From Bacteroidales bacterium (lineage in GTDB: Bacteria > Bacteroidota > Bacteroidia > Bacteroidales > UBA932), in contig JAFTEQ010000028.1 in the NCBI GenBank assembly GCA_017453565.1, forward strand, positions 1-42,209: a DNA stretch of 42,209 nt, written 5' to 3'. The position numbers and the translations under genes are program-made. Every line of letters starts with the position of its first letter. Within the stretch, counting starts at the first letter, position 1. Under the pieces are notes generated by a model, which did no database searches, had not been told where the DNA came from, and saw only the letters and a list, made by a program, of their open reading frames with translations. Shown here piece after piece: positions 1,733 to 29,014 of this stretch.

Positions 1733-3939
1733 AAACTGTAGCTGACCGAGAAATTGACGGTGAAGGGAATGATATACGTTCCCGCCAGGAGATAGTCGGT
1801 CAGGTCGATATCGGCACCCAGCGTGTCGGCAGCGTCGATTTTTCCCTTGGCTCCCTTTGCTCCGAGCAGGTTCACCATGTCCACCGCTACGTTGCAGCCG
1901 GGCAGCAGTTTGTAACTCACGCCGGCGAAGGTTTCCCAGTGCCCGTCGAAAGCAACGGTATTCGTCTTGTTGGCGTACTGCTTGCTGAAATAGCGCAGGC
2001 TGCCCCAGACGCGGAATTTCTTCCAGCTGTAGGACGGGTCGATTTCGGCCAGTACACGGGAAAGGCCCGAGTAGTAATAGCCGGTGTAGTCCATGGTGAA
2101 GGGCCCGTCGCTGAAGTCGCCGTGGGCAATGAGGTTCGTGTATTTGGGTTCCTGCAGTGTGAGGAGGGCGTGCAGGTTGAACCCGCCCTTATGCAGCGTG
2201 GCTTCATTGGTCCAGCCAAAGGTCCCGTACGAGACGTCCGCCAGATAAATGACCGATTCGGAAACTCCGCCGACTAGGCGGGAGAGGGTTGTGGTACTGT
2301 TGCCGTGGGCGGAATGGATATAGGACACCGCAGAACTGAGGTCGAGCCAGTCGTTGTTCCATACCAGCCCCACACGGCCGAGTTGCCCGACCGCCGGCTT
2401 GGGGTTGGGTGCGTTGGAGGAGAAGTGGTGGATCATGATCCGATGCCGCTGGGTGTAGATATACTCGGCCATACCGTAAAGGCAGTCTCCAATCTTGTAA
2501 TCACCCTTGAGCAGTGCGGCAAAGTTGGGTCCGTCGGTGCGGATATGGTTCGGATGCGCTGTTCCGTTCTTGATGAAGAACCCGTCCGTACGGGTGTTGG
2601 CCGTCTGGCCGGAAAGGTTGTAGGCGCTCCAGGTATCCACATGCAGCCAGCCCGCACGCAGGCCCGTCTGCAGGCTCAGGCGGCTGTTCACGGCCCACTT
2701 GTCCATGGCGAACACGCACAGGTCATTGCTCCAGCCGTCGGCATAGACCATGCCTTTGTTGAGATTCCAACTGTCTTTGCCGTCGAGGTACAGGCGCACC
2801 GGATTGACTTCCACCGTATGCGCAAACGATGCGTATGAGGTATATACGAACTGTTTGTCAAAGAAATTGTACAGGCCCAGCGTGAGGTCGTGCGCACCCA
2901 GGGTGCGCGACAGGGTCGCGTTTCCGATTACATCATACAGGGCATCTTTTTGGAAATTGACGTTGCGTCCCTGCATGGGGCCGGAATACGCAGTACCGTC
3001 GACGAGGGTCACAGCCTTGCCCGAGGAGCTCATTCCCCCCGTAATCTGGCTGATGTTCCCGACACTCCAGCCGAAGAAGTGGAAATCGGGAGCCAGGCAG
3101 AGGTGCAGCCCGGCCTGGAGTTTCCATCCGGCCACGTCATCGATGCGAAGCAGCGTAGACACGTCATGGATGACCTTGTCACCCAGCTCGCCCAGGACGT
3201 GCGCCTTGAAGGGCTTGCCCGTGTAGCCGTCCACGAAGGAGACGAGGTCATCGGTGGGGAAATAGTTGTCCAGGCCCATGCGGAATCCGTCATAAGACCT
3301 GACGCTTCCGTCCCCTACATAATAGAAGGGGGCGACCAGAAGTTTTGAGGAAATGTCCCGGTTGAACGAGACCTTGTAGAGCAGCGACAGTTCCCCGCCG
3401 GACCAGCGTTTGGTCAAGGCGCCGCGGAACACCTCCATGTCGTTCACATATTTAAGTTGTACGGGCCGGGTGCTGCCCGGATCCTTGTTGACATAGGCCG
3501 AAACCATGTAGTAGAAACCCTTCCCGAGCGGGCCGCTGAGGGCAAGATCGGCCTTAATTCGGCCAAAACTACTGGATGCCGCCGTGATGCTCCCTTCGAA
3601 GCGGTCGCCGCCCAGTTTGCTATAGCTGTCAAGCATCGCGCCTATGCGGCCCAGGTAGATGGCGCCGTCTTCGAGCGGCTTGATGCTGCGCGAAGAGTAG
3701 GAGTGTCCTCCGGCCCAATGGTGGAACTGGTAGATGGGATAGTCCACATAGTTCATGAGCATTCCGTCTTCCACCACTACCGTACCCATATCGCCCGGGG
3801 ACAGGCCGATGTTTATTTCGCGGGGTTTGTTGGACGCTTCTGCGTTAAGCATTACGTTGCGCTCGCCGCTCTGTTGGACGGCCGTGCTGTCCGGGGTTTG
3901 TACGCCGACGAGGCCGACAAGAATCAAGGATAAAAGCAT
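1729..3939 (-). CDS. TonB-dependent-receptor-like outer-membrane barrel protein
   Basis: The 736-residue product is predicted to be an outer-membrane beta-barrel. It begins with a short hydrophobic leader ([15 protein letters not shown]), continues with a receptor-like segment (about residues 60-120, containing [11 protein letters not shown] and a GGDRFEG turn) and then many alternating aromatic/polar strands, ending in SVSYSF, the usual C-terminal aromatic signature of barrels. The N-terminal plug looks reduced, and there is no carboxypeptidase-like leader domain and no clear TonB box. The ATG at 3939 is chosen over an in-frame TTG at 3948 because a TAnnTTTG promoter element lies only six bases upstream of it. 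No SusD-like partner is adjacent, so the substrate is unknown. It resembles TonB-dependent receptors and orphan Bacteroidota barrels, but the exact family is not certain. Confidence 0.7.
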
Positions 3940-14117: not shown

Positions 14118-15030
14118 GCCGCACTACGATGGAAAGGGGAAGGATCTTGCCCGAGCGGTCGCGCAGGGCGAGTTCGCCCGATTCAAGGCCGGCCACGGGG
14201 CCGGAACCCAAACCCAGGGCTTCGCGCACCAGGGTCTCGCCCAGCAGGGCGCTGTAGCCGTTTGAATAGAGGTTGAGCACCAGGAAACTGTCTTCGGGCT
14301 CCAGGATGGCGCCCACGGTGCGCAGCATCTCGAAAAGACACTCGTCCAGTTTCCATTTCTCCCCGTCGGGCCCGTGCCCGTAGGCGGGCGGATCGAGGAT
14401 GATGCCCTGGTAGCGCTTGCCGCGCCTGGCTTCCCGGGCGGCGAATTTCATGGCGTCTTCCACTACCCAGCGGATGCCGTCCAGGCCGCTTGCTTCCATG
14501 TTGCCCCGGGCCCAGGTAACCACCTGACGCACGGACTCGAGGTGCGTCACATCGGCCCCGGCGGCCTTGGCCGCAAGCGATGCGCCGCCCGTGTAGGCAA
14601 AGAGGTTGAGCACTTTGGGTGCCTCCGCTCCCGGCCGGACCAGGGCTCTGGTATTGCGGTAGATATATTCCCAGTTGGGCGCCTGTTCGGGGAAGACCCC
14701 CACGTGCTTGAACGAGGTGAGGCCCAGGCGCAGGTCGAAGCGCGGTCCGCCGTCGGAGCAGCCCGGGTAGCGGATGTACCACTGGTCGTCCATCTTTTTC
14801 AGACGGTCCCAGCTGCCGCTGTCTTCCTTTCCCGCCTTGCCGAATCCGGCGCCCGGCGTGAAACGGGTGTGCGACAGGCGTGCCCATTCCGCCTCGGACA
14901 GGGTCTTGTCCCAGAGGGCTTTCGGTTCGGGCCGGGCGAGCACATAGGCGCCGAAGCGCTCCAGTTTTTCGCCGTCGCCGGAGTCGATCAGTTCGTAGTC
15001 TTTCCAGTCGGGATTCGGATATTCGGTCAT
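14107..15030 (-). CDS. Class I SAM-dependent methyltransferase, RlmK/RlmI-like (COG1092)
   Basis: The 307-residue protein resembles the 23S rRNA cytosine/guanine methyltransferases of COG1092. SAM-binding motif I is [21 protein letters not shown], the acidic motif II is [11 protein letters not shown], and the DPPAYGHGP motif (residues around 215) is the typical DPP(A/S) loop. The N-terminal half ([27 protein letters not shown]) is like stand-alone members that lack a PUA domain. The target nucleotide cannot be deduced. The ATG at 15030 is seven bases from a TAnnTTTG element. It is a single-gene unit whose 3' end overlaps the lactonase gene. Confidence 0.85.
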
Positions 15031-15037
15031 AGCAGGG

Positions 15038-15045
15038 CAAAGATA
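15038..15045 (-). promoter_or_regulatory. -7 element (TATCTTTG) of the methyltransferase gene
   Basis: The minus strand reads TATCTTTG, seven bases before the ATG at 15030, implying a leaderless or very short leader. Confidence 0.65.
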
Positions 15046-15078
15046 CGAAGAGCGCGCAGATTTCTCAACGTTTTTTGT

Positions 15079-15086
15079 TACCTTTG
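15079..15086 (+). promoter_or_regulatory. -7 element (TACCTTTG) of pgk
   Basis: TACCTTTG matches TAnnTTTG and lies 31 bases upstream of the pgk ATG at 15118. It is divergent from the methyltransferase promoter. Confidence 0.6.
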
Positions 15087-15117
15087 CGCCCGGAATAGTA
15101 GTAAATACCTAAATATT

Positions 15118-16371
15118 ATGCAGCAGTTCATCGACAAATACGACTTCGCGGGCAAGAAAGCCATCGTGCGGGTCGATTTCAACGTTCCCCTCGACGAGAA
15201 CTTCAACATTACGGACGACACCCGCATCCGTGCGGCCATCCCCACGCTCAAGAAGGTGCTCGCCGGCGGCGGTTCGCTCATCATCATGTCGCATCTGGGG
15301 CGTCCGAAAGGCGTCACCGACAAGTTCTCCCTGAAGCACATCGTGGACCATGTGTCCATGTGTCTGGGCGTGCTGGTTCAGTTCGCCCCTGACTACCAGA
15401 AGGCCGATGCACAGGTGGCCGCCCTCAAGCCGGGCGAGGCGCTGCTGCTCGAGAACCTGCGTTTCTATGCCGAAGAGGAAGGCAAGCCCCGCGGACTCGC
15501 CGAGGATGCCTCCGACGAGGAGAAGAAGGCCGCCAAGGCCGCGGTGAAAGAGAGCCAGAAAGCCTTCGTGGCCAAGCTCGCCTCCTACGCCGACTGCTAT
15601 ATCAACGACGCATTCGGCACCGCCCACCGCGCCCACGCCTCCACCGCCCTCATTGCCAAGTTCTTCCCGGACGACAAGATGTTCGGCTACCTGATGGAAG
15701 GCGAGATCAAGGCCATCGACAACGTGCTCAAGAACGCCAAGCGTCCCTTCACCGCTATCATCGGCGGCAGCAAGGTGTCGAGCAAGCTTGCCGTGCTGGA
15801 AAACCTCCTTACCAAGGTGGACAACCTCATCATCGGCGGCGGCATGGGCTACACCTTCATCAAGGCCGAGGGCGGCCGTATCGGGAATTCGCTCCACGAG
15901 GACGAACTCATCCCGCAGGCGCAGGAGATTCTGGCCAAGGCCAAGGAGCGCGGCGTGAACATCTCGCTTTCGGTGCAGACCCGCGTGGCGAACGAATTCA
16001 GCAACGACTCGGCAACGCAGCTGGTTCCCTCGCACGAGATCCCCGAGGGCTGGGAAGGCATGGACGCCGGTCCCGAGTCGCTCGAAATCTGGAAGAAGAT
16101 CATCCTTTCCTCCAAGACCATTCTCTGGAACGGTCCTGTGGGCGTGTTCGAGATGCCTTCGTTTGCAAAGGGAACGCTGCAGATTGCGCAGGACCTGGCC
16201 GAGGCTACGGCTGCGGGCGCCTACACGCTCGTGGGCGGCGGCGACAGCGTGGCTGCCGTGACGCAGATGGGCTTCGCCGACAAGGTGAGCTACGTCTCCA
16301 CCGGCGGCGGCGCCATGCTTGAGGCTATTGAAGGCAAGGAACTCCCCGGTATCGCCGCTATCCGCGAATAA
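15118..16371 (+). CDS. pgk: Phosphoglycerate kinase
   Basis: This cytoplasmic glycolytic enzyme interconverts 1,3-bisphosphoglycerate plus ADP and 3-phosphoglycerate plus ATP. The 417-residue product has the N-terminal substrate motif [12 protein letters not shown], the SHLGRPKG loop, [12 protein letters not shown], the [12 protein letters not shown] hinge region and the C-terminal nucleotide-binding GGGDSVAAV and [19 protein letters not shown]. Length is normal for the family. The ATG at 15118 follows the promoter by 31 bases; the in-frame codons further upstream belong to the antisense of the methyltransferase. A small barrel gene follows 14 bases downstream. Confidence 0.98.
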
Positions 16372-17247: not shown

Positions 17248-17463
17248 CATGACCGAGTTTTTCAGCGCTCGCCGCAACGTAGATTGCTATTATTCAAGTA
17301 GATAAGGTTTTTGTGTCTATGAAAACCAGCGATACAAAAGCCGTATCTCTTTTATAACTAATGGATTGCGTTGCGGCCTTATTTTTTTTGTTGTCGGAAA
17401 CAGAAATATTATTACCTATACCCTCTGCCAAAACGAGAATTCTCACTATCTTCCCGGCAGACT

Positions 17464-18375
17464 ATGAAAAACAATCTTTGTTCTTGGCAAAATGTGCCTC
17501 GGCACATCTATATGAAGGGAGAAAACGGGCAAGGTATTTTTTACAACACTGAAGACTGTCTGTTTTTCTTAACCTTGTTCAGCGTTCTGGTGCGAAGATA
17601 TTCCGTTCGGACATTGGGTTTCTGCATCATGTTCAACCACGTTCACGCGTTGCTCCGTTTTCCGGATAAGGAAACTCAAGTATCCTTCTTAACACGTCTG
17701 ACCCAGTCTTTCGTACATGGTTATAATGTTGAATATGGTCGTACTGGGGCCCTCTTCCTCCATTCTTATGGGCATGCCCCTAAAGAAACCGCCAAAACAG
17801 TCCGATCCTGTATAGCATATATTGGGAACAACCCCGTAGCCGGTCGCCTGACACGACGAGCGCAAGATTATCGTTGGAATCTGTGCGCATACGCAGAGTC
17901 AACGTATCCTTTTTCGGCTTCCGTTTCTATGAAAACCGCCGCAAACCCGCTACGACGAGCCTTTAGATATGTTGATACACTCTACAAAATGGGGCAACCC
18001 CTTAGTTATGGAGCGCAACGAATCATATTCAATAAACTCTCCACAGATGGGAGAAAGAGCATCATAGACCGGATTGTCACCCGGTATAACTTTCTTGACT
18101 ATTCTGCATGGGAACGCTTATTCGGCTCCAAGTCAAAAGCTCTTTTTGCCATGGAAGCCAATACGGGTACTGAATACGATTTGCCAGAAGACTGGGAGGA
18201 CTATTCAATGTACCGGAGAATGCTGCAGATAGCTCGGGAATATCAGTTATTATCAGCTGGCCACGGGGTGGATTCTTTGACAGACAATGAAAAGGTGAAA
18301 CTATGGAAACTCATTTCCAATCATCTCACCCCAAAAGAAAGACAAATCCGAAAGTTCTTGCATCTCTTCGATTAG
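17464..18375 (+). CDS. REP-associated-type Y1 (HUH) transposase
   Basis: The 303-residue product belongs to the IS200-like/REP-associated tyrosine transposase superfamily. The single-strand DNA endonuclease core shows HIYMKGENGQGIFYN at the start, the HUH motif in MFNHVHALLRF (His59 and His61) and a likely catalytic tyrosine in GYNVEYGRTGALF (Tyr87 or Tyr91). The SCIAYIGNNPVAGRL segment is typical. A C-terminal extension of about 130 residues has no motif I recognise. The ATG at 17464 was chosen; an in-frame TTG at 17371 adds a low-complexity leader. GC content is clearly lower than that of neighbouring housekeeping genes, consistent with transfer. Hairpins and direct repeats upstream may be its substrate. 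No partner orfB is present. Confidence 0.85.
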   Translation: MKNNLCSWQNVPRHIYMKGENGQGIFYNTEDCLFFLTLFSVLVRRYSVRTLGFCIMFNHVHALLRFPDKETQVSFLTRLTQSFVHGYNVEYGRTGALFLHSYGHAPKETAKTVRSCIAYIGNNPVAGRLTRRAQDYRWNLCAYAESTYPFSASVSMKTAANPLRRAFRYVDTLYKMGQPLSYGAQRIIFNKLSTDGRKSIIDRIVTRYNFLDYSAWERLFGSKSKALFAMEANTGTEYDLPEDWEDYSMYRRMLQIAREYQLLSAGHGVDSLTDNEKVKLWKLISNHLTPKERQIRKFLHLFD

Positions 18376-20531: not shown

Positions 20532-21419
20532 CTATTTCTTTTTAAGCGGAATCTCTGCGGCGGCGGGCTCGCGTTTCACGGCGCCGTAGATCAAAAGGCC
20601 CAGACCCAGGGCGATGAACGGCAGGCTGAGCAGCTGCCCCATGTTGAGGGCCATATCTTCCTCGAAGCCCACCTGCGGTTCCTTGATGAACTCGATGAGG
20701 AAACGCATCCCGAAGCAGCCCAGGAAGAAGAGGCCGCTGAGCGTCCCTCGGAAAAGCCGCGCGAGCCGGTGGCGGTAGAGCCAGAGCAGGCCCAGACCCA
20801 GCAGCAGGTAGGAGAATGATTCGTACAACTGGGTGGGATGCTTGGGTTCGGTCTCGCCCCGCAGGTCGAAGATGATGCCCCAGGGGAGGGTGGTCACGTC
20901 GCCGTAGATCTCGGAATTGAAGAGGTTGCCCAGGCGGATGAACGCGCCCGCGAAGGCCACGGTGATGACCAAGCGGTCCAGCAGCCAGAGGAAGTCGAAC
21001 CCGTTGCGCGGGCCGTACTTGCGGGCGAACCAGATCATGGCGAGGATGATGGCAATGGCGCCCCCGTGGCTGGCGAGGCCGCCTTTCCAGGGCATGAAGA
21101 TCTCCCAGAAGGCTTGCCAGTTGGTCATCCCCGAGCGGGCGACGGCAGGGTCGACCTTCCCGCCGAAGAAGTCTACGAACGGTGCCAGGTAGTAGTCGGG
21201 CTGATAGAAGAGGCAGTGCCCCAGGCGGGCGCCCACGATGGTGGCGATGAGCAGGGTGTAGAGCAGCGGATCGAGCAGGGCTTCACTCACCCGTTCGCGG
21301 CGGAAGAAGCTGCGGAACAGGTACCATCCCAGGATGAATCCGGAGATGAACAGCAGCGAATACCAGCGCAGTTCCACGCTGCCGATGCTGAAAATGACGG
21401 GATTGACGTGCCAGTGCAT
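20532..21419 (-). CDS. lgt: Prolipoprotein diacylglyceryl transferase
   Basis: This inner-membrane enzyme transfers diacylglycerol from phosphatidylglycerol to the lipobox cysteine of prolipoproteins, the first step of lipoprotein maturation. The 295-residue product has the N-terminal RWYSLLFISGFILGW, the conserved GLASHGGAIAI, the signature RLGNLFNSEIYG and the PTQLYESFSYLL segment, spread over about seven membrane helices. Several lipoproteins in this window (GH3, propeller, efflux adaptor, GldH-like) would be its substrates. The start at 21419 follows a TAnnTTTG element by 13 bases. Confidence 0.96.
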   Translation of the reverse strand: MHWHVNPVIFSIGSVELRWYSLLFISGFILGWYLFRSFFRRERVSEALLDPLLYTLLIATIVGARLGHCLFYQPDYYLAPFVDFFGGKVDPAVARSGMTNWQAFWEIFMPWKGGLASHGGAIAIILAMIWFARKYGPRNGFDFLWLLDRLVITVAFAGAFIRLGNLFNSEIYGDVTTLPWGIIFDLRGETEPKHPTQLYESFSYLLLGLGLLWLYRHRLARLFRGTLSGLFFLGCFGMRFLIEFIKEPQVGFEEDMALNMGQLLSLPFIALGLGLLIYGAVKREPAAAEIPLKKK

Positions 21420-21432
21420 ACAAGTCTTTTCG

Positions 21433-21440
21433 CAAAGATA
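21433..21440 (-). promoter_or_regulatory. -7 element (TATCTTTG) of lgt-GH36
   Basis: The minus strand reads TATCTTTG, 13 bases before the lgt ATG at 21419. It is divergent from the RHS promoter. Confidence 0.65.
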
Positions 21441-21462
21441 AGATTAATTTGCCGAAAAAAAC

Positions 21463-21470
21463 TATCTTTG
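21463..21470 (+). promoter_or_regulatory. -7 element (TATCTTTG) of the RHS gene
   Basis: TATCTTTG lies 27 bases upstream of the RHS ATG at 21498 and 22 bases from the divergent lgt element. Confidence 0.6.
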
Positions 21471-21497
21471 TTTCGAGACCGCCATTACGATAATCCG

Positions 21498-24400
21498 ATG
21501 GAGCATTTTCTTATTATTCTGGCCACTTTTCTAGTGTCCGTTCAGTGGTCGGGGGACTTGTCGGCCGAAGTTCCTTCCGAAACACGCAATACTCCTCTAC
21601 ATAAATCTGTTGGGCATGCCCGATCCGTTGGGTTCTCTCCAATTGATACTACCCGCTGTCCGGGTAGTATCTCTCTTTCGTCTGGCGTGTCCAAGATGGG
21701 TGCCAGAACCTACTCCATCCCCGTTACCCTGCCGGTCAACGCGAGCGCTATGTCGGATCTGGCCCTGGTATACGACAGCCAGTCCGCTGCGGGCGATGCC
21801 GGGTGGGGATGGAATGTGGGTGGAGTGTCTCGCATCTCTATTGCCCAGAAAACGACGTACTATGACGGGAAGGCGGAGGCCCCGGTCCGTCCGGACACCA
21901 CCGCTGCCTGGCGCCTCGACGGCGAGCCGCTCGTGCGCAATGCCACGGCGTCGATGGCTGCAGCCTACCCTTGGGAGACGGCACACGGGCACGTTATGGT
22001 GCGGCCAAACTGCCGTGCCGACGGGATTGTGGAGACCTTCGATGTCCTGCGCCCCGACGGGACCGGCGCCACGTATGGCATGGCGTCGACGGCCGGACTC
22101 ACGCCTTATTATCCCGTCTCCGAGTACCGGGATGCCTTCGGCAACACCTCTACCTATACATACCTGCGTGATATGGGGCGGCTGTACCTTACCCGGGTTG
22201 ATTACAAACGCGGGAACACCCCGGTCGGATCCGTCACCCTGTCTTACCTGACGGACATGTCCGTCCCGTTCCAGCACTACGCGGGATTTGACATCTCCTC
22301 CCGCCGTCGCCTTTCATCCATCGCTACGGTGGAAGCCGGCGGGGATACCGTGCGCGTCCTTACACCCGCCTATGGAAGCGTAGCCGGCCATCCGGTGCTG
22401 AGCAGTCTTTCCTGCGGCAATGGAGCCGGCGGCATGCTCAACCCGCTTCAGTTTTCTTATGGAGACGCTTCCGTGGAGACGGGCGATTTCCTTTCCCCGG
22501 AAACCATCACCATCTCGGGCGTCCCCAGTACGAATAATATCGTTCAGCGCGGGAAGCTCGTCCCGGGCAGCTTTGAGGACGGATTCCTCATCTATCCCAA
22601 GAAGAGCAGCTACTCCAGTTCGGATAAGCTCTATTTCGTGCCGACAGCACGTGGGGGAGTCGTCCGTCCCTATGCCGTCCCTGATGGCTTTCTGGGCGCC
22701 GCCGTAGCCGACGTAAACGGAGACGGGACAGACGAGATTGTTGTCATCAGCCTCTCAAAAACTCTGTCCCAAGGGGTAGAGGTCCCTTGGTTTAATGCGT
22801 TGATCTATAGCTATAACAGCAACACTACATACTTTTCTTCGCGTACAGTCACGCTTCCTCTCCCTTTTTCCTCCATGTCCGGGATTTCCTTGGATGTGAA
22901 CTTCGGAGACTTTACCGGAGCGGGGCGCATCCAGTTGCTCGCGTCCTTTTCTGCGAAAACGGTTTTCTCTCCATCAGTGTTGTTGTCCAAAGCGGCGGTA
23001 ATCAACCTCAATACCGGTGCCGCCGATGCCTCCTATGCCGACTTTTTCGACAGTTCCGACCTGTACGATGCGAGCACCCATTCCCTGTATGCGGCAGACC
23101 TTGATTCCGACGGAGTCTCAGAGATTCTCCGACCTCTTTCGGGATACACGCAGGTTTGGCGTAGGGAGGCTGCCGGCTTTGTCCACAAGTCCGATATCTC
23201 CAACCTTGGGCTGAATTTGTTCTCCGACGAGAGGGTGCTGTTCGGCGACCTGAATGCGGACGGCTATCCCGATCTTGCCCTTTCTCCCGAGGAGAACTCC
23301 GGGCAATGGATTTTCTTGCGCAATACCGGAACGGCGTTTAGCCGCGACACGCTCCTTCTTCACACCCGTCCCTCCGACGAAGACTACCTGCTGCAGGACC
23401 TGAACAATGACGGCTATGCCGACCTTGTCTGCCACGACAGCGGGCGCTTGCGCTTCTATCTGAATCAGGGATATCTTTTCCCCATCACGCCGACAGAGTC
23501 CTCCGCTTCGGTGACGGGCAAAGGGAAGATGCTCCCGGTGAATGTGGGCGCCGGCGAACTGCCCAACGACTTTGTCATCGTGAATGCAAGCGGGACCTCC
23601 GCCAAGTCTTTCCTGTTCGACTCCGACGTGCGTCGCAGTCTTACACTCACCTCCCTTCGCGACGGTCTGGGTGCCGAGGCGGAGAATGACTATGCCTGTA
23701 TGTCCGGAAACACGGGCGTTTATGATCCCACGCTCATAGGGTTTTATACGGGCAGCGGGTTCGCCCGTTTTATGGCTCCTTTCTATCTGCTGCGCGAGGC
23801 GCGGAGTTATGCTCCGGGCGGGACGAATGCAGTGCGCGATACGCTTTCCCGCGTACGCTGTTCCTACCGTTCCGCCGGCGTCCATACCCTGGGCATCGGC
23901 CCGCTCGGCTTCGGCCAGACCACGACGGAGAACCTTCTCTCGGAGATGGGAGGCACGGAAGTGACGGTGGAGCAGCGGAACCTGAACCAACTTGGCGTGA
24001 CGACATCCGTCTCCCGTTCGCTCGACAGGGCGGGCAATGCTGAGGCATTGTCTCTGGTGAGCAATACCTATGTCGGTTACATCCATACCTATGGGAAAAT
24101 GTCTCCCCGGCTCTACTCTTCCGAGACGCGCGATTGGCTGACCGGCCATACCGAAACGACCTGGGCACTGGACTACGATGAATACGATGTCCCGCACACT
24201 TCCGCGAAGGTCCGGTCTGTTTTCCAGGATGCCGTTTCCGACTCGACTTGGCTGAACCGGACAAACATCCTGGATCCGGTCTCCGGCCGTCTGGTCATCG
24301 GTCGCGTTTCATCGGAACGCACGGTCTCCAGACGGTACCAGACTGTTGGGAGTGATGTGTCCCGTCCCGTTCTGGAAACCGGGCGGGTATACACTTACGA

Positions 24401-27400
24401 TGCGTACGGCTTGCCATCGGAGGTGCGGGACTATGCATATAATAACGAAACTCCTCCATACCTTTCCGCGCTTGTCGGGAGGGAGTGCCATAGCTGGTCG
24501 TCAACCGGCAATCCGCTCACGGAGGCCGTGTACCGACAGAACAATACGGCACCTTCCGACAGCACTGCCTACGGCTATGACCCTGCCGGCGTCCGGGCCG
24601 TGTCGGTTACCGATGCCCTTGGGCACACCACGTCCCTGTCTGACTTCGACCGTTACGGCCGCCCCCGACTCGCCACGGATTACCGCGGCCGCCAGACGCG
24701 CACCTGTTATGACGCCTGGGGCGCGGAGACCTCCGTCACCCGGCCCGACGGTACGTGCGACTCCGTCCGTACGGCCTGGTGCGGCACCGGGGAGCCTGGC
24801 GTCTGGAAGGAGATCCGGCTCCGGAGCGGGGCCCCGCCGGAAGTGTCGTACCACGATGCCGCGGGCAGGGAACTGCGCCGTAGCGTCCGCCGTTTCGACG
24901 GCCGCTGGCTGCACTCCGACACGGAGTACGACCGCACCGGTGCCGTGGTCCGCAGTTCCCTCCCGCACTTTGCGGACTCCACCGTGGTGTGGGCGACCAG
25001 GACCTACGACGACTACCACCGCCTCGAGAGCGACGGTCACGGCGATGGTTCCGTTGATTTCTATTATTACGAGGACAACGCCGTGCAGTGCTACAGCGAT
25101 TCGGAGACCTGGCGCTGGTACGGCGCCGACGGGAGCGTCATCCGCGCCGAGGACTACGAGGGTACGGTCCTGCTGGCCTACCGGCCCGACGGAAGCCTGC
25201 TCTATACGCTCACGCCCGGGCGTCCGGCGAGCCAGAGGGTAAGGAGGGACGTCAGCTATGACCTGCTTGGAAGACGGACCGCTCTGACGGACCCATCGGC
25301 CGGGACGCACAGCTGGTCGCGCAGCAACCTCTCCGACGGAGGAGAGCAACTCGTCCATACGTCACGGGACGGGTCTGTCCGGACGGTCTCGGACCGCCTT
25401 GGCCGGGTTGTCTCCGAGATCCTGGATACGGCTGCCGTAGGCGGCCTCTCTGCGGCATACAGCTACGATGCCGACGGCCTTCCTGTGTCCGTGTCCGGTT
25501 CCAACGGTACGGGTGTGACCTATGCCCGCGACAGCCTGGGCCGTGTAACCAGCGAAACGCGGACCGGCCTGGACGGCCTGTGGCTGAAGAAGGACTATAC
25601 GTATGACGGCGACGCCCGGATTGCCTCGGTCGCCTACAGCTCTTCCCTTTCTGGCCCCATCGCTACGCTCTCATACACCTACACGGGTGGGTACAACACC
25701 AAGGTCTGTTTGGGCGATACGACCACGGTGTGGCAGCTCCAGGCCGAGGACGCCCTGGGTCTTCCCCGCACTGCGAAGACGGCGGGGGGGATGCAGCGCC
25801 GTTACACGCACGATGCCGCCGGCCAAATCATCCGCCGCGAGGCCGGCACGGTGCAGGACGAGTCCTATGGCTATTGGATTCAAGGACGCGTGGTGAGCAG
25901 GAGCGATTCTGTCCGGGATGTCTGGGATTGGTTTGGTTACGACGATGCCGGACGACTCTACCAGACGGAACGCGAAGGGGAGCTTTGGTATACGATTCTT
26001 GGGAACTCCGGAGGTGACGACGTCCAGACCTTCTCCTATACGGATGCATCGGACATCTACCGGGTGACGGGCATCCAGTCCACTCTCGAGCCGTCGCTGA
26101 CACTGCGCCCCTACAAGATCTCCTACACGCCGTTCGCCCGGCCCAGGATCATTCGCGAGAGCGGGAAGAAATACCGGGCCGACATCGATTACGGCCCCGA
26201 CCGGCAGCGGGTGCGGATGGTGCTGCGCGATACGACCTATTACTTGCCGCTGCTCAAGCGGTATTACCTGGGCGAGTACGAGGCGGAAGCCGTCCCCGGT
26301 ACGGGCGGCCAGACCAATTGGCGTGAGTGGATCTATCTTGACGGCGACGCCTACACGGCCCCGGCGGTGTATGTGAACGAGGGGGGCAGCTGGACGCTCT
26401 ATAACCTTTGCCGTGACGTTGTGGGAAGCGTCACGGAGGTAGTGAAGGCGGACGGGACGCTCGTTGCCGCCTGTGCCTACGACGCCTGGGGCCGTCCGAG
26501 GGACCCCGACACACTGGAACCCTATGCCTCGGGTTCGGAACCGGATCCGTTCCTCTGGCGCGGTTTCACGGGACACGAGCAGCTGCCGTTCTTCGGGCTG
26601 GTGAATATGAACGCGCGGCTCTACGACCCCATCCGCCGCCAGTTCCTCTCGGCCGACCCGAACATCCAGAACCCCTTCTCCACGGCCGGCTACAACCGCT
26701 ACATCTACGCGAACAATCTCCCGCTCACCTATGTGGATAGGGATGGGGAGTCGATTATTCTTGCAGCAGCGTTGATTGGAGCTGCTATTGGGATGGCTGG
26801 AGGAGGCGTACAAGGATATAGAATTGCCCAAGCACGAGGACTAACTGGTCGTGAAATGCTTGGCTATGTTGCTGGCGGAGCCTTGATTGGTGGCGCTGCC
26901 GGCGCTTTGGGCGGAATAGTTGGCGGGGCCGTTTCTTCGGCTATTGCTGTAGGTGGTTTCGTAGCAGGAGCGTCTTCTGGCCTTGCTGCCGGAGCAACTT
27001 CTGGTTTTTTGAACGGGTTTGGAATGTCTCTTCTTGCCGGCAATGATTTGGTTGATGCGTCTTTTGATGGTCTGGTATATGCGGCTAGGGGTGCGGTTTC
27101 AGGAGTGGTAATCGGAGGTCTTGCCGGGGGATTAAGAGAGGCTATTCGTCATCGTTCGTTCTGGAACGGGAAAGTTGACCCCGTTAAGGAAATCGCGAGA
27201 TCGGTGAAGAATAATATGCATAACTGGGATCCTCCAATGGATATGACCTCTTACGAAAAAGGAGAATACGGTTCATCATTTGTAAAAAATAGCATCGAAG
27301 CTAAAGGATATTCAGTTGAACGTGAAGTGCCTCTGAGGTTAGGAAAGACACAGGTAAGAGTTGATCTGATGACCGAGATGAATAATCGACCTGTTTTTAT

Positions 27401-27575
27401 AGAAGTAAAGAATGGCCCGCATGCAGGACTGACACACAATCAAGAAATTGTTTATCCTAAGCTGTTATATGAGAATCCATCTCTTGATCCAGTTAAACCG
27501 TTTACAGTTGGAGGGAAATCATTTGATTCTTCGTTTAAGAACTATTATTTTGTAATCATCAAATTGAATTTTTAA
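21498..27575 (+). CDS. RHS-repeat polymorphic toxin with C-terminal PD-(D/E)XK nuclease-like tip
   Basis: The 2025-residue protein starts with a Sec-type signal peptide (MEHFLIILATFLVSVQWSGDLSA). A SpvB/TcaC-like segment follows at about residues 55-115 (ALVYDSQSAAGDAGWGWNVGG). FG-GAP/VCBS-type calcium motifs come next (DVNGDGTDEI, DLNADGYPDL, DLNNDGYADL), then many YD/RHS repeats that form the toxin-enclosing shell. The RHS core ends around residues 1700-1747 (MNARLYDPIRRQFLSADPN, YANNLPLTYVDRDGES). After it, base composition drops sharply. The tip has a glycine/alanine-rich hydrophobic stretch and a C-terminal domain with Asp1956, Glu1969 and Lys1971 in the order D-x12-E-x-K, a PD-(D/E)XK nuclease pattern. 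Nuclease activity is inferred. The stop overlaps the next gene by one base (TAATG). Delivery route is unknown; no type VI, type IX or C-terminal sorting signal was seen. Confidence 0.9.
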   Translation: MEHFLIILATFLVSVQWSGDLSAEVPSETRNTPLHKSVGHARSVGFSPIDTTRCPGSISLSSGVSKMGARTYSIPVTLPVNASAMSDLALVYDSQSAAGDAGWGWNVGGVSRISIAQKTTYYDGKAEAPVRPDTTAAWRLDGEPLVRNATASMAAAYPWETAHGHVMVRPNCRADGIVETFDVLRPDGTGATYGMASTAGLTPYYPVSEYRDAFGNTSTYTYLRDMGRLYLTRVDYKRGNTPVGSVTLSYLTDMSVPFQHYAGFDISSRRRLSSIATVEAGGDTVRVLTPAYGSVAGHPVLSSLSCGNGAGGMLNPLQFSYGDASVETGDFLSPETITISGVPSTNNIVQRGKLVPGSFEDGFLIYPKKSSYSSSDKLYFVPTARGGVVRPYAVPDGFLGAAVADVNGDGTDEIVVISLSKTLSQGVEVPWFNALIYSYNSNTTYFSSRTVTLPLPFSSMSGISLDVNFGDFTGAGRIQLLASFSAKTVFSPSVLLSKAAVINLNTGAADASYADFFDSSDLYDASTHSLYAADLDSDGVSEILRPLSGYTQVWRREAAGFVHKSDISNLGLNLFSDERVLFGDLNADGYPDLALSPEENSGQWIFLRNTGTAFSRDTLLLHTRPSDEDYLLQDLNNDGYADLVCHDSGRLRFYLNQGYLFPITPTESSASVTGKGKMLPVNVGAGELPNDFVIVNASGTSAKSFLFDSDVRRSLTLTSLRDGLGAEAENDYACMSGNTGVYDPTLIGFYTGSGFARFMAPFYLLREARSYAPGGTNAVRDTLSRVRCSYRSAGVHTLGIGPLGFGQTTTENLLSEMGGTEVTVEQRNLNQLGVTTSVSRSLDRAGNAEALSLVSNTYVGYIHTYGKMSPRLYSSETRDWLTGHTETTWALDYDEYDVPHTSAKVRSVFQDAVSDSTWLNRTNILDPVSGRLVIGRVSSERTVSRRYQTVGSDVSRPVLETGRVYTYDAYGLPSEVRDYAYNNETPPYLSALVGRECHSWSSTGNPLTEAVYRQNNTAPSDSTAYGYDPAGVRAVSVTDALGHTTSLSDFDRYGRPRLATDYRGRQTRTCYDAWGAETSVTRPDGTCDSVRTAWCGTGEPGVWKEIRLRSGAPPEVSYHDAAGRELRRSVRRFDGRWLHSDTEYDRTGAVVRSSLPHFADSTVVWATRTYDDYHRLESDGHGDGSVDFYYYEDNAVQCYSDSETWRWYGADGSVIRAEDYEGTVLLAYRPDGSLLYTLTPGRPASQRVRRDVSYDLLGRRTALTDPSAGTHSWSRSNLSDGGEQLVHTSRDGSVRTVSDRLGRVVSEILDTAAVGGLSAAYSYDADGLPVSVSGSNGTGVTYARDSLGRVTSETRTGLDGLWLKKDYTYDGDARIASVAYSSSLSGPIATLSYTYTGGYNTKVCLGDTTTVWQLQAEDALGLPRTAKTAGGMQRRYTHDAAGQIIRREAGTVQDESYGYWIQGRVVSRSDSVRDVWDWFGYDDAGRLYQTEREGELWYTILGNSGGDDVQTFSYTDASDIYRVTGIQSTLEPSLTLRPYKISYTPFARPRIIRESGKKYRADIDYGPDRQRVRMVLRDTTYYLPLLKRYYLGEYEAEAVPGTGGQTNWREWIYLDGDAYTAPAVYVNEGGSWTLYNLCRDVVGSVTEVVKADGTLVAACAYDAWGRPRDPDTLEPYASGSEPDPFLWRGFTGHEQLPFFGLVNMNARLYDPIRRQFLSADPNIQNPFSTAGYNRYIYANNLPLTYVDRDGESIILAAALIGAAIGMAGGGVQGYRIAQARGLTGREMLGYVAGGALIGGAAGALGGIVGGAVSSAIAVGGFVAGASSGLAAGATSGFLNGFGMSLLAGNDLVDASFDGLVYAARGAVSGVVIGGLAGGLREAIRHRSFWNGKVDPVKEIARSVKNNMHNWDPPMDMTSYEKGEYGSSFVKNSIEAKGYSVEREVPLRLGKTQVRVDLMTEMNNRPVFIEVKNGPHAGLTHNQEIVYPKLLYENPSLDPVKPFTVGGKSFDSSFKNYYFVIIKLNF

Positions 27576-28945
27576 TGAAGAATCCAGTTAAAACACTAAT
27601 ACGAGAGTCTCTGATAAATGAGATGAAAGAAAGAGGTTTTGAGCCATGCTCGGGGGAGCCTTGCTCTCTAATACATAACAAGAATAACGAACAATCATTT
27701 GTTATTTCTTTTCGAATTGTTTGGTCCCATGGTTTTTATTATGTGGAGACATATCCGGGTATAGTTTATCATCGGGTAGAAGATATCCGTTTAATGCTTT
27801 TTCAGATGTCAAAAACGCCCATGTCACTTACTTGTCACCCCACAATAGTGTGTTCTCTGGAGTTTATTGTATACAAAAAACAAGGTGTCAGAGTTCAATG
27901 GAGAACAAAAACAGAGGAGGGCGTAAGTGCACTAGTCCATGAAATAATTGGAGCTGTTGAGCAATATGCTTTTCCGTTCTATAAAGAGTTTGGCGATTTG
28001 GAGAGTTTGATGAGAATAATGACAGTCAAACTTAATCCCAATCGATTGGTCGATGTAGACGATTGTTATACTTACCCAATTGTCTTATATCTTTTAGGTA
28101 AACGGATAAAAGGTCGAATGATTGTCAATCAGTTTCGTTGGTTGGGGTTATATGATGATTGCCCGTGTTTCCCCGAAAACTACAAGAAACTACTTTCAGG
28201 ATCCTTTGTTGATACTACTAAAAAGCCACTCCTGAGCTCATATTCTTTGAGAAAAATGTCGAAAGTAATACACACAGACCTCGAAGCGTTGCTTTCTCGC
28301 AATGGCTTTGTAAAACGCCCCAAGGGGCCTTATTATTATCGGAGCGCGGAAGACGATGTTCACTATCAACTTGGACTCTCAGTATCGGAGACGGGTGACG
28401 GAGTCCATATTATCCCGAGCGTAGGCGTGGTTTATGATAAGTTGAATACTCTATATGAACAGTTGTGCTCGTTTTCATATCCTACGTACTCGGCAACGAT
28501 TGCCGTCCACGACATGAATCTTATCATTCCGTTACGTGAAGGAGTGAATAGACAACAAGTCTCCGGTCGTCTTCCGAAAAAACATAAGGTGGGACGAAAA
28601 GAATGGTGTATTACTCATCTTGATGAGAGACAGTATGTTTATGCAGATATGATCCGATGTTTTAATCAGTATGCATTACCGTTCTTTCAATACTATGGAC
28701 AGTTTGACCATATGCTCGAATCTTTGCTGAAGAATGAACAGTCGGATACAGCACGGGGCCTTTATGCCCCGGCCGCATTCTATCTACTTGGTGATTACAA
28801 GAAAGGGATGCGTGAAATGAGGCGAGGAATGCGAAAGGGTGTTTATGGCCCATACATTTTTTCTTCATATCCGGAGAATTATCTTAAATTGCTTTCAGAT
28901 GCAAAATGTCAGAATCAGAGGAATCTTCTAGACCACGGAGAGTAA
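27575..28945 (+). CDS. Putative immunity protein with two tandem homologous domains
   Basis: The 456-residue protein has no signal peptide or membrane segment and is probably cytoplasmic. I do not recognise the family. It consists of two related halves, about residues 1-215 and 225-456. Matching pairs include PGIVYHRVED with VGVVYDKLNT, QYAFPFYKEFGDLESLM with QYALPFFQYYGQFDHML, YPIVLYLLGKRIKGRM with APAAFYLLGDYKKGM, and FPENYKKLLSG with YPENYLKLLSD. The ATG overlaps the RHS stop by one base, and the gene shares the low GC of the RHS tip, so it is most likely the cognate immunity gene. That role rests on position and composition alone. Confidence 0.75.
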   Translation: MKNPVKTLIRESLINEMKERGFEPCSGEPCSLIHNKNNEQSFVISFRIVWSHGFYYVETYPGIVYHRVEDIRLMLFQMSKTPMSLTCHPTIVCSLEFIVYKKQGVRVQWRTKTEEGVSALVHEIIGAVEQYAFPFYKEFGDLESLMRIMTVKLNPNRLVDVDDCYTYPIVLYLLGKRIKGRMIVNQFRWLGLYDDCPCFPENYKKLLSGSFVDTTKKPLLSSYSLRKMSKVIHTDLEALLSRNGFVKRPKGPYYYRSAEDDVHYQLGLSVSETGDGVHIIPSVGVVYDKLNTLYEQLCSFSYPTYSATIAVHDMNLIIPLREGVNRQQVSGRLPKKHKVGRKEWCITHLDERQYVYADMIRCFNQYALPFFQYYGQFDHMLESLLKNEQSDTARGLYAPAAFYLLGDYKKGMREMRRGMRKGVYGPYIFSSYPENYLKLLSDAKCQNQRNLLDHGE

Positions 28946-28982: not shown

Positions 28983-29014
28983 CAGGCACGCACGCGTCTT
29001 AAAACAGTAGTGTC

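Follow-up and report, generated by a model that had tools for sequence, protein, structure and literature searches.

A probable PD-(D/E)XK nuclease toxin tip and its predicted immunity gene at the end of a Bacteroidales Rhs gene

Introduction

What is encoded at the AT-rich end of a large Rhs gene from a Bacteroidales genome, and does the gene behind it belong to the same unit? The locus lies on contig JAFTEQ010000028.1 of assembly GCA_017453565.1 (GTDB lineage UBA932), of which we analyzed the 42,209 nucleotides from position 1 to 42,209, hereafter “the window.” The original prediction for positions 26735..28945 was a nuclease-like toxin tip with a coupled partner gene. In our opinion the region is very probably an exchanged Rhs C-terminal cassette, made up of a PD-(D/E)XK nuclease toxin tip and an immunity gene. 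This opinion is based on the predicted fold of the tip, its motif, the co-occurrence and co-divergence of tip and partner, tip exchange in a relative, and a duplication within the partner. Systems of this kind (an Rhs tip plus an immunity gene) are already well known; the pairing of this tip with this partner is apparently undescribed. The features needed to follow the argument, all on the forward strand, are these:

21492..27575, forward: Rhs/YD-repeat carrier including the tip (2027 amino acids), with SpvB-like and FG-GAP parts followed by RHS repeats
26712..26747, forward: end of the Rhs core motif (NNLPLTYVDRDG), from residue 1741, with its last base at 26747
26748..27173, forward: Gly/Ala-rich hydrophobic linker, read from the sequence, ending in FWNGK (27159-27173)
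27240..27572, forward: predicted PD-(D/E)XK nuclease tip, the last 111 residues of the Rhs protein (D1958, E1971, K1973, and conserved Q1984)
27575..28945, forward: partner gene, predicted immunity protein of 456 amino acids; DUF4304 match, with a homologous gene accompanying the tip in 14 of 15 loci
27578..28132, forward: first DUF4304-related repeat (partner residues 2-186; 54.8 bits with a profile made without the window sequence)
28253..28840, forward: second DUF4304-related repeat (partner residues 227-422; 34.3 and 25.6 bits in two pieces, again with a profile made without the window sequence)

The nuclease tip

RHS/YD repeats and an Rhs core stand ahead of the tip, as in Rhs polymorphic toxins: RHS_repeat scores 42.8 bits in Pfam (cut-off 22), and TIGR03696 (Rhs_assc_core) scores 42.2 bits (cut-off 32.5). 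The only D-x(10-14)-[DE]-x-K pattern in the 2027-residue protein is the D-x12-E-x-K of the tip, the codons of which lie at 27363 (D1958), 27402 (E1971), and 27408 (K1973). The original prediction had the pattern right, but its residue numbers (D1956, E1969, and K1971) were two too low.

Structure prediction, proposed at the outset as a check, returned a nuclease fold with a predicted local distance difference test score (pLDDT) of 93.7. The modeled order is helix, three strands, helix, strand, which is that of the PD-(D/E)XK superfamily, with D on strand 2 (37-47) and ExK on the neighboring strand 3 (50-58). Top structural matches are PD-(D/E)XK-type nucleases, with VRR_NUC the best and FAN1 and Hjc also present, and tRNA-splicing endonucleases are found in the same list. 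Some rows of that list carried no family label, and the labels we gave them are presumed ones.

Across relatives (L and G numbers denote loci and genomes), E-x-K is kept in all 13 aligned tip rows and D in 12, the exception being the partial tip of L032; D and E-x-K are also present in the tips of L062 and L064. A tip profile made without the window sequence finds the window tip at 78.5 bits. Many of the sub-threshold Pfam matches of the tips are to PD-(D/E)XK families, and a profile match to the Pseudomonas protegens RhsA toxin (expectation value, E, of 2.7e-6) runs over the D-ExK core. Judged by sequence, that toxin is the nearest characterized relative found here. Together with the model and its structural matches, these results support the nuclease-like nature originally proposed for the tip.

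Assignment to a named family is less direct. VRR_NUC (PF08774) is matched by one of 13 members, below its cut-off (L033, 23.5 vs. 23.8 bits), and not by the window tip. In Pfam, Tox-REase-7 is matched by one of 13 members (E 0.24) and Tox-REase-9 by none of the 13, and no match appeared under the names Tox-REase-1 or Tox-REase-6. DUF6997 scores 18.6 bits with the window tip and 23.0 bits with that of L062 (cut-off 27); this weak likeness suggests that DUF6997 may be a PD-(D/E)XK restriction enzyme. Two proteins that had been considered as tips, L020:1288-2097 and L021:1303-1980, were rejected as DUF6996/DUF6997 proteins, and a third, in L061, as UPF0102. By eye, the DUF6997 gene of L020 adjoins a gene resembling a DNA methyltransferase.

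Tip and partner across loci

Fifteen independent tip loci were available, namely the window, L022-L033 (12 loci from one tip query), and L062 and L064, both met through a carrier query. Eleven of the 12 were newly met; the remaining one, L028, corresponds to contig L003/L018, which had first been met via the partner. These 12 loci are assigned to Bacteroidales, Bacteroidia, Bacteroidaceae, Bacteroidetes, and Flavobacteriales, with L033 from Acidobacteria; L062 comes from a genome of the window's genus (G757) and L064 from one of its family (G827).

In 14 of these 15 loci the tip is followed, on the same strand, by a homologous gene, as expected of the coupled partner in the original prediction. 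Tip and partner are found together again on other contigs, which takes the observation beyond chance. The fifteenth contig, L030, stops 67 codons into the next open reading frame (ORF), too early to tell; this terminal ORF, to which the profile gives E 2.8, was not counted as a partner. A tip in a complete stretch with no such neighbor was seen in none of the 15. As a control for circularity, leave-one-out profiles recovered all 13 partner rows of alignment A5 at 58.0 bits or above, and partners that were never in the profile were still found (L062, 138.6 bits; L064, 81.7 bits).

The partner is the immediate next gene in 12 of the 14 paired loci; about 400 bases including a 73-residue ORF intervene in L028, and one 141-residue ORF in L029. 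Downstream of the L028 pair, a 127-residue ORF with a weak DUF2380 match (L028:5617-6000) is possibly another loose tip. The core motif shares an ORF with the tip in nine of the 15 loci; L022 starts within the linker, the tip of L033 is a stand-alone ORF of 172 residues, and in L025, L027, L029, and L032 the tip's ORF has no core motif. In the window itself, the TAA stop of the Rhs gene ends at 27575, the A of the partner's ATG, so that the two genes do overlap by the one base first reported.

Tip and partner also diverge together. Their distances are correlated (Mantel r 0.74, p 0.0001, n=14, with L030 left out and the window represented by its second partner half alone), and remain so without L032, L033, and L064 (r 0.67, p 0.0004, n=11).

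The partner gene

The window partner matches DUF4304 (PF14137) at 23.5 bits, with a cut-off of 23.2, in two stretches. An alignment of its two halves gives E 3e-8, and in sequence terms the protein reads as two tandem copies of a DUF4304-related domain. The original prediction did not recognize the partner family; at the level of a doubled DUF4304-related protein it can be recognized. The model shows an alpha/beta part and then TPR-like C-terminal helices, and the Pfam scan gave no DUF3396 match. The partners of L003 (19.3 bits) and L026 (20.8 bits) fall under the DUF4304 cut-off, and those of L062 and L064 have no match at E 0.1. These profile scores place the partners as a branch on the margin of the DUF4304 model.

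Among the 14 paired loci, a doubled partner was seen in the window alone. A second instance was found in genome G783, where L072:761-2814 holds tandem partner-family genes for 230 residues and for 461 residues, the latter with halves that are 33% identical (E 4e-27). Doubling is therefore not unique to the window, and L072 is a possible polyimmunity locus. The L064 partner (L064:6008-7138) has a C-terminal Imm26-like part, 31% identical to the protein of L062:3875-4342, itself a sub-threshold Imm26 match.

In 296 Bacteroidota genomes, DUF4304 was found above its cut-off in 11, at 14 places. At one of these (L010:474-1914, genome G174) the DUF4304 gene directly follows an Rhs tip of the Tox-REase-9 type (95.3 bits). 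No paper naming DUF4304 or PF14137 was found in the literature searched, a search that left most subscription papers out of scope.

Base composition and tip exchange

The original prediction described an abrupt drop in guanine-cytosine content (GC) after the core motif. The dip is real, but the sharp step comes about 430 bases later. GC is 0.611 in the carrier (21492-26734), 0.533 in the linker (26745-27179), 0.372 in 27180-27572, which includes the tip, and 0.406 in the partner gene. There are thus two steps, one at the core motif (from about 0.61-0.65 to 0.53) and one near 27180 (from 0.53 to about 0.38). GC stays low through the tip and the next gene and recovers near 28945 as predicted, being back up to 0.63 at 29000. 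Over 26735-28945 the mean is 0.424. A scan of the window in 50-base steps puts the 2.2-kb minimum at a start of 26801 (0.422); outside the dip region no such stretch falls below 0.470.

Exchange of the tip is seen in relatives (G827 and L027) rather than in the window itself. Genome G827 has two Rhs genes, L063 and L064, with 50/50 identities in each of three successive blocks (150 amino acids) up to the core at position 1810 and different tips past it, which agrees with the exchanged tip of the original prediction. Further upstream, identity of the pair is 15-33/50 across much of 200-1100. The L064 gene carries the window-type tip and partner, and the L063 gene an HEYGH-motif tip followed by lipoprotein-like genes. 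In L027, two tips occur in one locus. Across 61 residues ending in FWNGDMP the copies of their linker agree (59 identities in the alignment), and past that point they diverge, which gives linker and nuclease the look of separate modules. The second GC step of the window coincides with, and fits, the exchange border seen in L027.

Relation to known systems

The papers in this section are cited from excerpts. The closest counterpart is RhsA/RhsI of P. protegens (PDB 7q97, PMC8765631), likewise an Rhs-carried C-terminal toxin with the immunity gene downstream. RhsA is described there as a PAAR-containing, type VI-delivered effector, its toxin as a predicted DNase, and RhsI as reversing the toxicity in Escherichia coli. 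No PAAR was detected in the window carrier, which differs from RhsA also in its FG-GAP and SpvB-like parts.

TseV1-4 of Salmonella bongori are VRR-Nuc-type PD-(D/E)XK antibacterial nucleases with an adjacent immunity gene (TsiV, DUF3396), and TsiV3 is reported to block TseV3 over its DNA-binding site (PMC9635880). VRR_NUC is also the best structural match of our tip; the differences are that our tips, where scored with cut-offs, stay under that of VRR_NUC (L033 being closest) and that the partner has no DUF3396 match. RdnE/RdnI of Proteus mirabilis is another PD-(D/E)XK nuclease effector and immunity protein, with homologues also in Bacteroidota (PMC12483513). RdnI is predicted there to contain several helices; in the modeled partner, an alpha/beta part precedes the helices.

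Ten tip families of the restriction endonuclease (REase) fold are described by Zhang et al. 2012 (PMC3482391), as are recombination with toxin cassettes and polyimmunity proteins, in which immunity domains are repeated. Like our tip, their Tox-REase families are REase-fold tips, many of them with RHS repeats. By eye, the signatures of Tox-REase-1 (E, D, ExK, Q) and Tox-REase-6 (E, D, ExK, Q, Y) fit the tip, which may be a branch of one or the other. The partners listed in that source for Tox-REase-1, 6, 7, and 9 (Imm-PA2201, Imm49, HEAT, Imm23, and Imm54) are different ones. Imm54 is its entry for Tox-REase-9 tips; the Tox-REase-9 tip of L010 instead precedes DUF4304.

Finally, the possible restriction enzymes of DUF6996/DUF6997 have a catalytic core weakly like that of the tip. 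Unlike it, the proteins of L020 and L021 are free-standing and not Rhs tips.

Proposed mechanism and alternatives

The Rhs shell would be exported carrying the tip and, by analogy with RhsA, would hold it and free it by cleavage near the core, so that the tip would be released past the core motif. (By eye, the window core has aspartates at positions similar to those of RhsA.) The tip may then enter a neighboring bacterium or competitor, where its D-ExK site would bind metal and cut what is presumably DNA. The partner, probably translationally coupled to the tip, would bind and block it and so protect the producer, as TsiV3 reportedly does with TseV3. In the window partner the predicted immunity domain is duplicated. 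An immunity role is also supported by the L064 partner, which is joined to an Imm26-like domain, and by L010, with DUF4304 directly after a Tox-REase-9 tip.

Several results weigh against this interpretation. Of the 11 tip members scored against curated Pfam cut-offs, none passes one, and scanning 21492-26745 with Pfam to an E of 5 gave no PAAR. The window partner clears the DUF4304 cut-off by just 0.3 bits, and only five of the 13 A5 partner rows match that family at E 0.1 (best 0.00015). Thirteen of the 14 DUF4304 places have no recognizable toxin (by eye, ORFs within about 1.5 kb on each side, contig permitting); DUF4304 at large is therefore not confined to toxin loci. The genome search for DUF4304 gave no match in the window's own genome, and the partner profile matches five of the 14 places, L010 not among them. 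Partner-like genes occur with no tip in view in L072 and L073. The Mantel set includes some truncated tips, and shared descent of whole loci may explain part of the correlation.

Which other explanations deserve consideration? A possible one, although on the unlikely side, keeps the toxin-immunity pair and makes RNA the substrate, or restricts cutting to special DNA structures (forks or flaps, for instance), in place of DNA in general. Structure-selective nucleases (VRR_NUC, FAN1, and Hjc) are among the top structural matches, tRNA-splicing endonucleases are in the same list, and the VRR-Nuc effector TseV3 cleaves Y-shaped and not linear DNA (PMC9635880, excerpts). The weak kinship with DUF6997, which in L020 sits beside the methyltransferase-like gene, points to DNA instead. 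If the partner were to serve the tip as chaperone or regulator and not inhibit it, its TPR-like C-terminal helices, common in chaperones, and its position immediately after the tip would be natural. We find this improbable, since the partner goes with the tip rather than with the carrier (in G827, lipoprotein-like genes come after the second Rhs gene, whose tip differs), an Imm26-like domain is fused to it in L064, and the tip-free pair of single and doubled genes in L072 is what one would expect of spare immunity genes.

It is more improbable still that the locus is a relic with a decayed or inactive tip. The window tip does diverge from its relatives past the NQ motif, and both partner halves lack the GYLMPE stretch of relatives; however, both genes are open, D and E-x-K are retained, and the score of 78.5 bits comes from a profile made without the window tip. 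That tip and partner are chance neighbors and the GC dip unrelated can be rejected with near certainty, given the homologous partner next to the tip in 14 of 15 loci. We thus favor a nuclease toxin with its immunity protein.

A broader and rather doubtful proposal has two parts, which we take together. The DUF4304-related domain with its TPR-like tail would be a general immunity scaffold against several PD-(D/E)XK tip clades, and the tandem protein of the window would be two-headed, one half serving the resident tip and the other the related tips of competitors, in the same operon as the toxin. Our confidence here was lowered because the partner profile has no match to the DUF4304 gene of L010.

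Carrier gene and surroundings

The ORF enclosing the Rhs gene runs from 20838 to 27575; its start was placed by eye at 21492, the most likely position because the stretch upstream looks intergenic by eye. The N-terminus resembles a signal peptide, by eye only. The Pfam scan of the carrier gave FG-GAP_3 at 45.6 bits and SpvB at 15.7 bits, the latter under its cut-off. The partner is followed by genes of normal composition that encode an outer membrane efflux protein and a protein of the HlyD type. Just upstream of the Rhs gene is found:

20535-21419, reverse: prolipoprotein transferase gene (LGT, 219.6 bits)

Further upstream, 17371-18375 has a sub-threshold match to Y1_Tnp (IS200-like; 20.4 bits, cut-off 23). 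The phosphoglycerate kinase match at 14374-16371 spans only residues 253-655 of a 665-residue ORF, the true start of which may be further downstream.

A second cassette recurs in the related loci, consisting of Rhs proteins or fragments with an HEYGH or other unnamed tip and then a small lipoprotein-like gene:

L024:4975-6530
L032:4823-6496
L062:4776-6384 and 2382-3711
L063:2104-8783
L031:2043-3563

The HEYGH motif, metallopeptidase-like by eye, occurs in the tips of L024, L031, L032, and L063, and the lipoprotein-like gene ends with a KMWPPY stretch in L024, L032, and L062. At E 0.1, L024:4975-6021 and L062:4779-5765 had no Pfam match.

Conclusions

The original prediction held that the pair may be undescribed. 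Because the tip has a characterized distant relative, only its subfamily and the pairing look undescribed; as the kind of system is well known, what is gained is a new family and a new pairing. If our interpretation is correct, a probable function can be offered for a family at the edge of DUF4304, and a subfamily of Rhs nuclease tips with its own partner is defined, mostly in Bacteroidota. The doubled immunity gene would, in addition, make it simple to test if protection is broadened by duplication.

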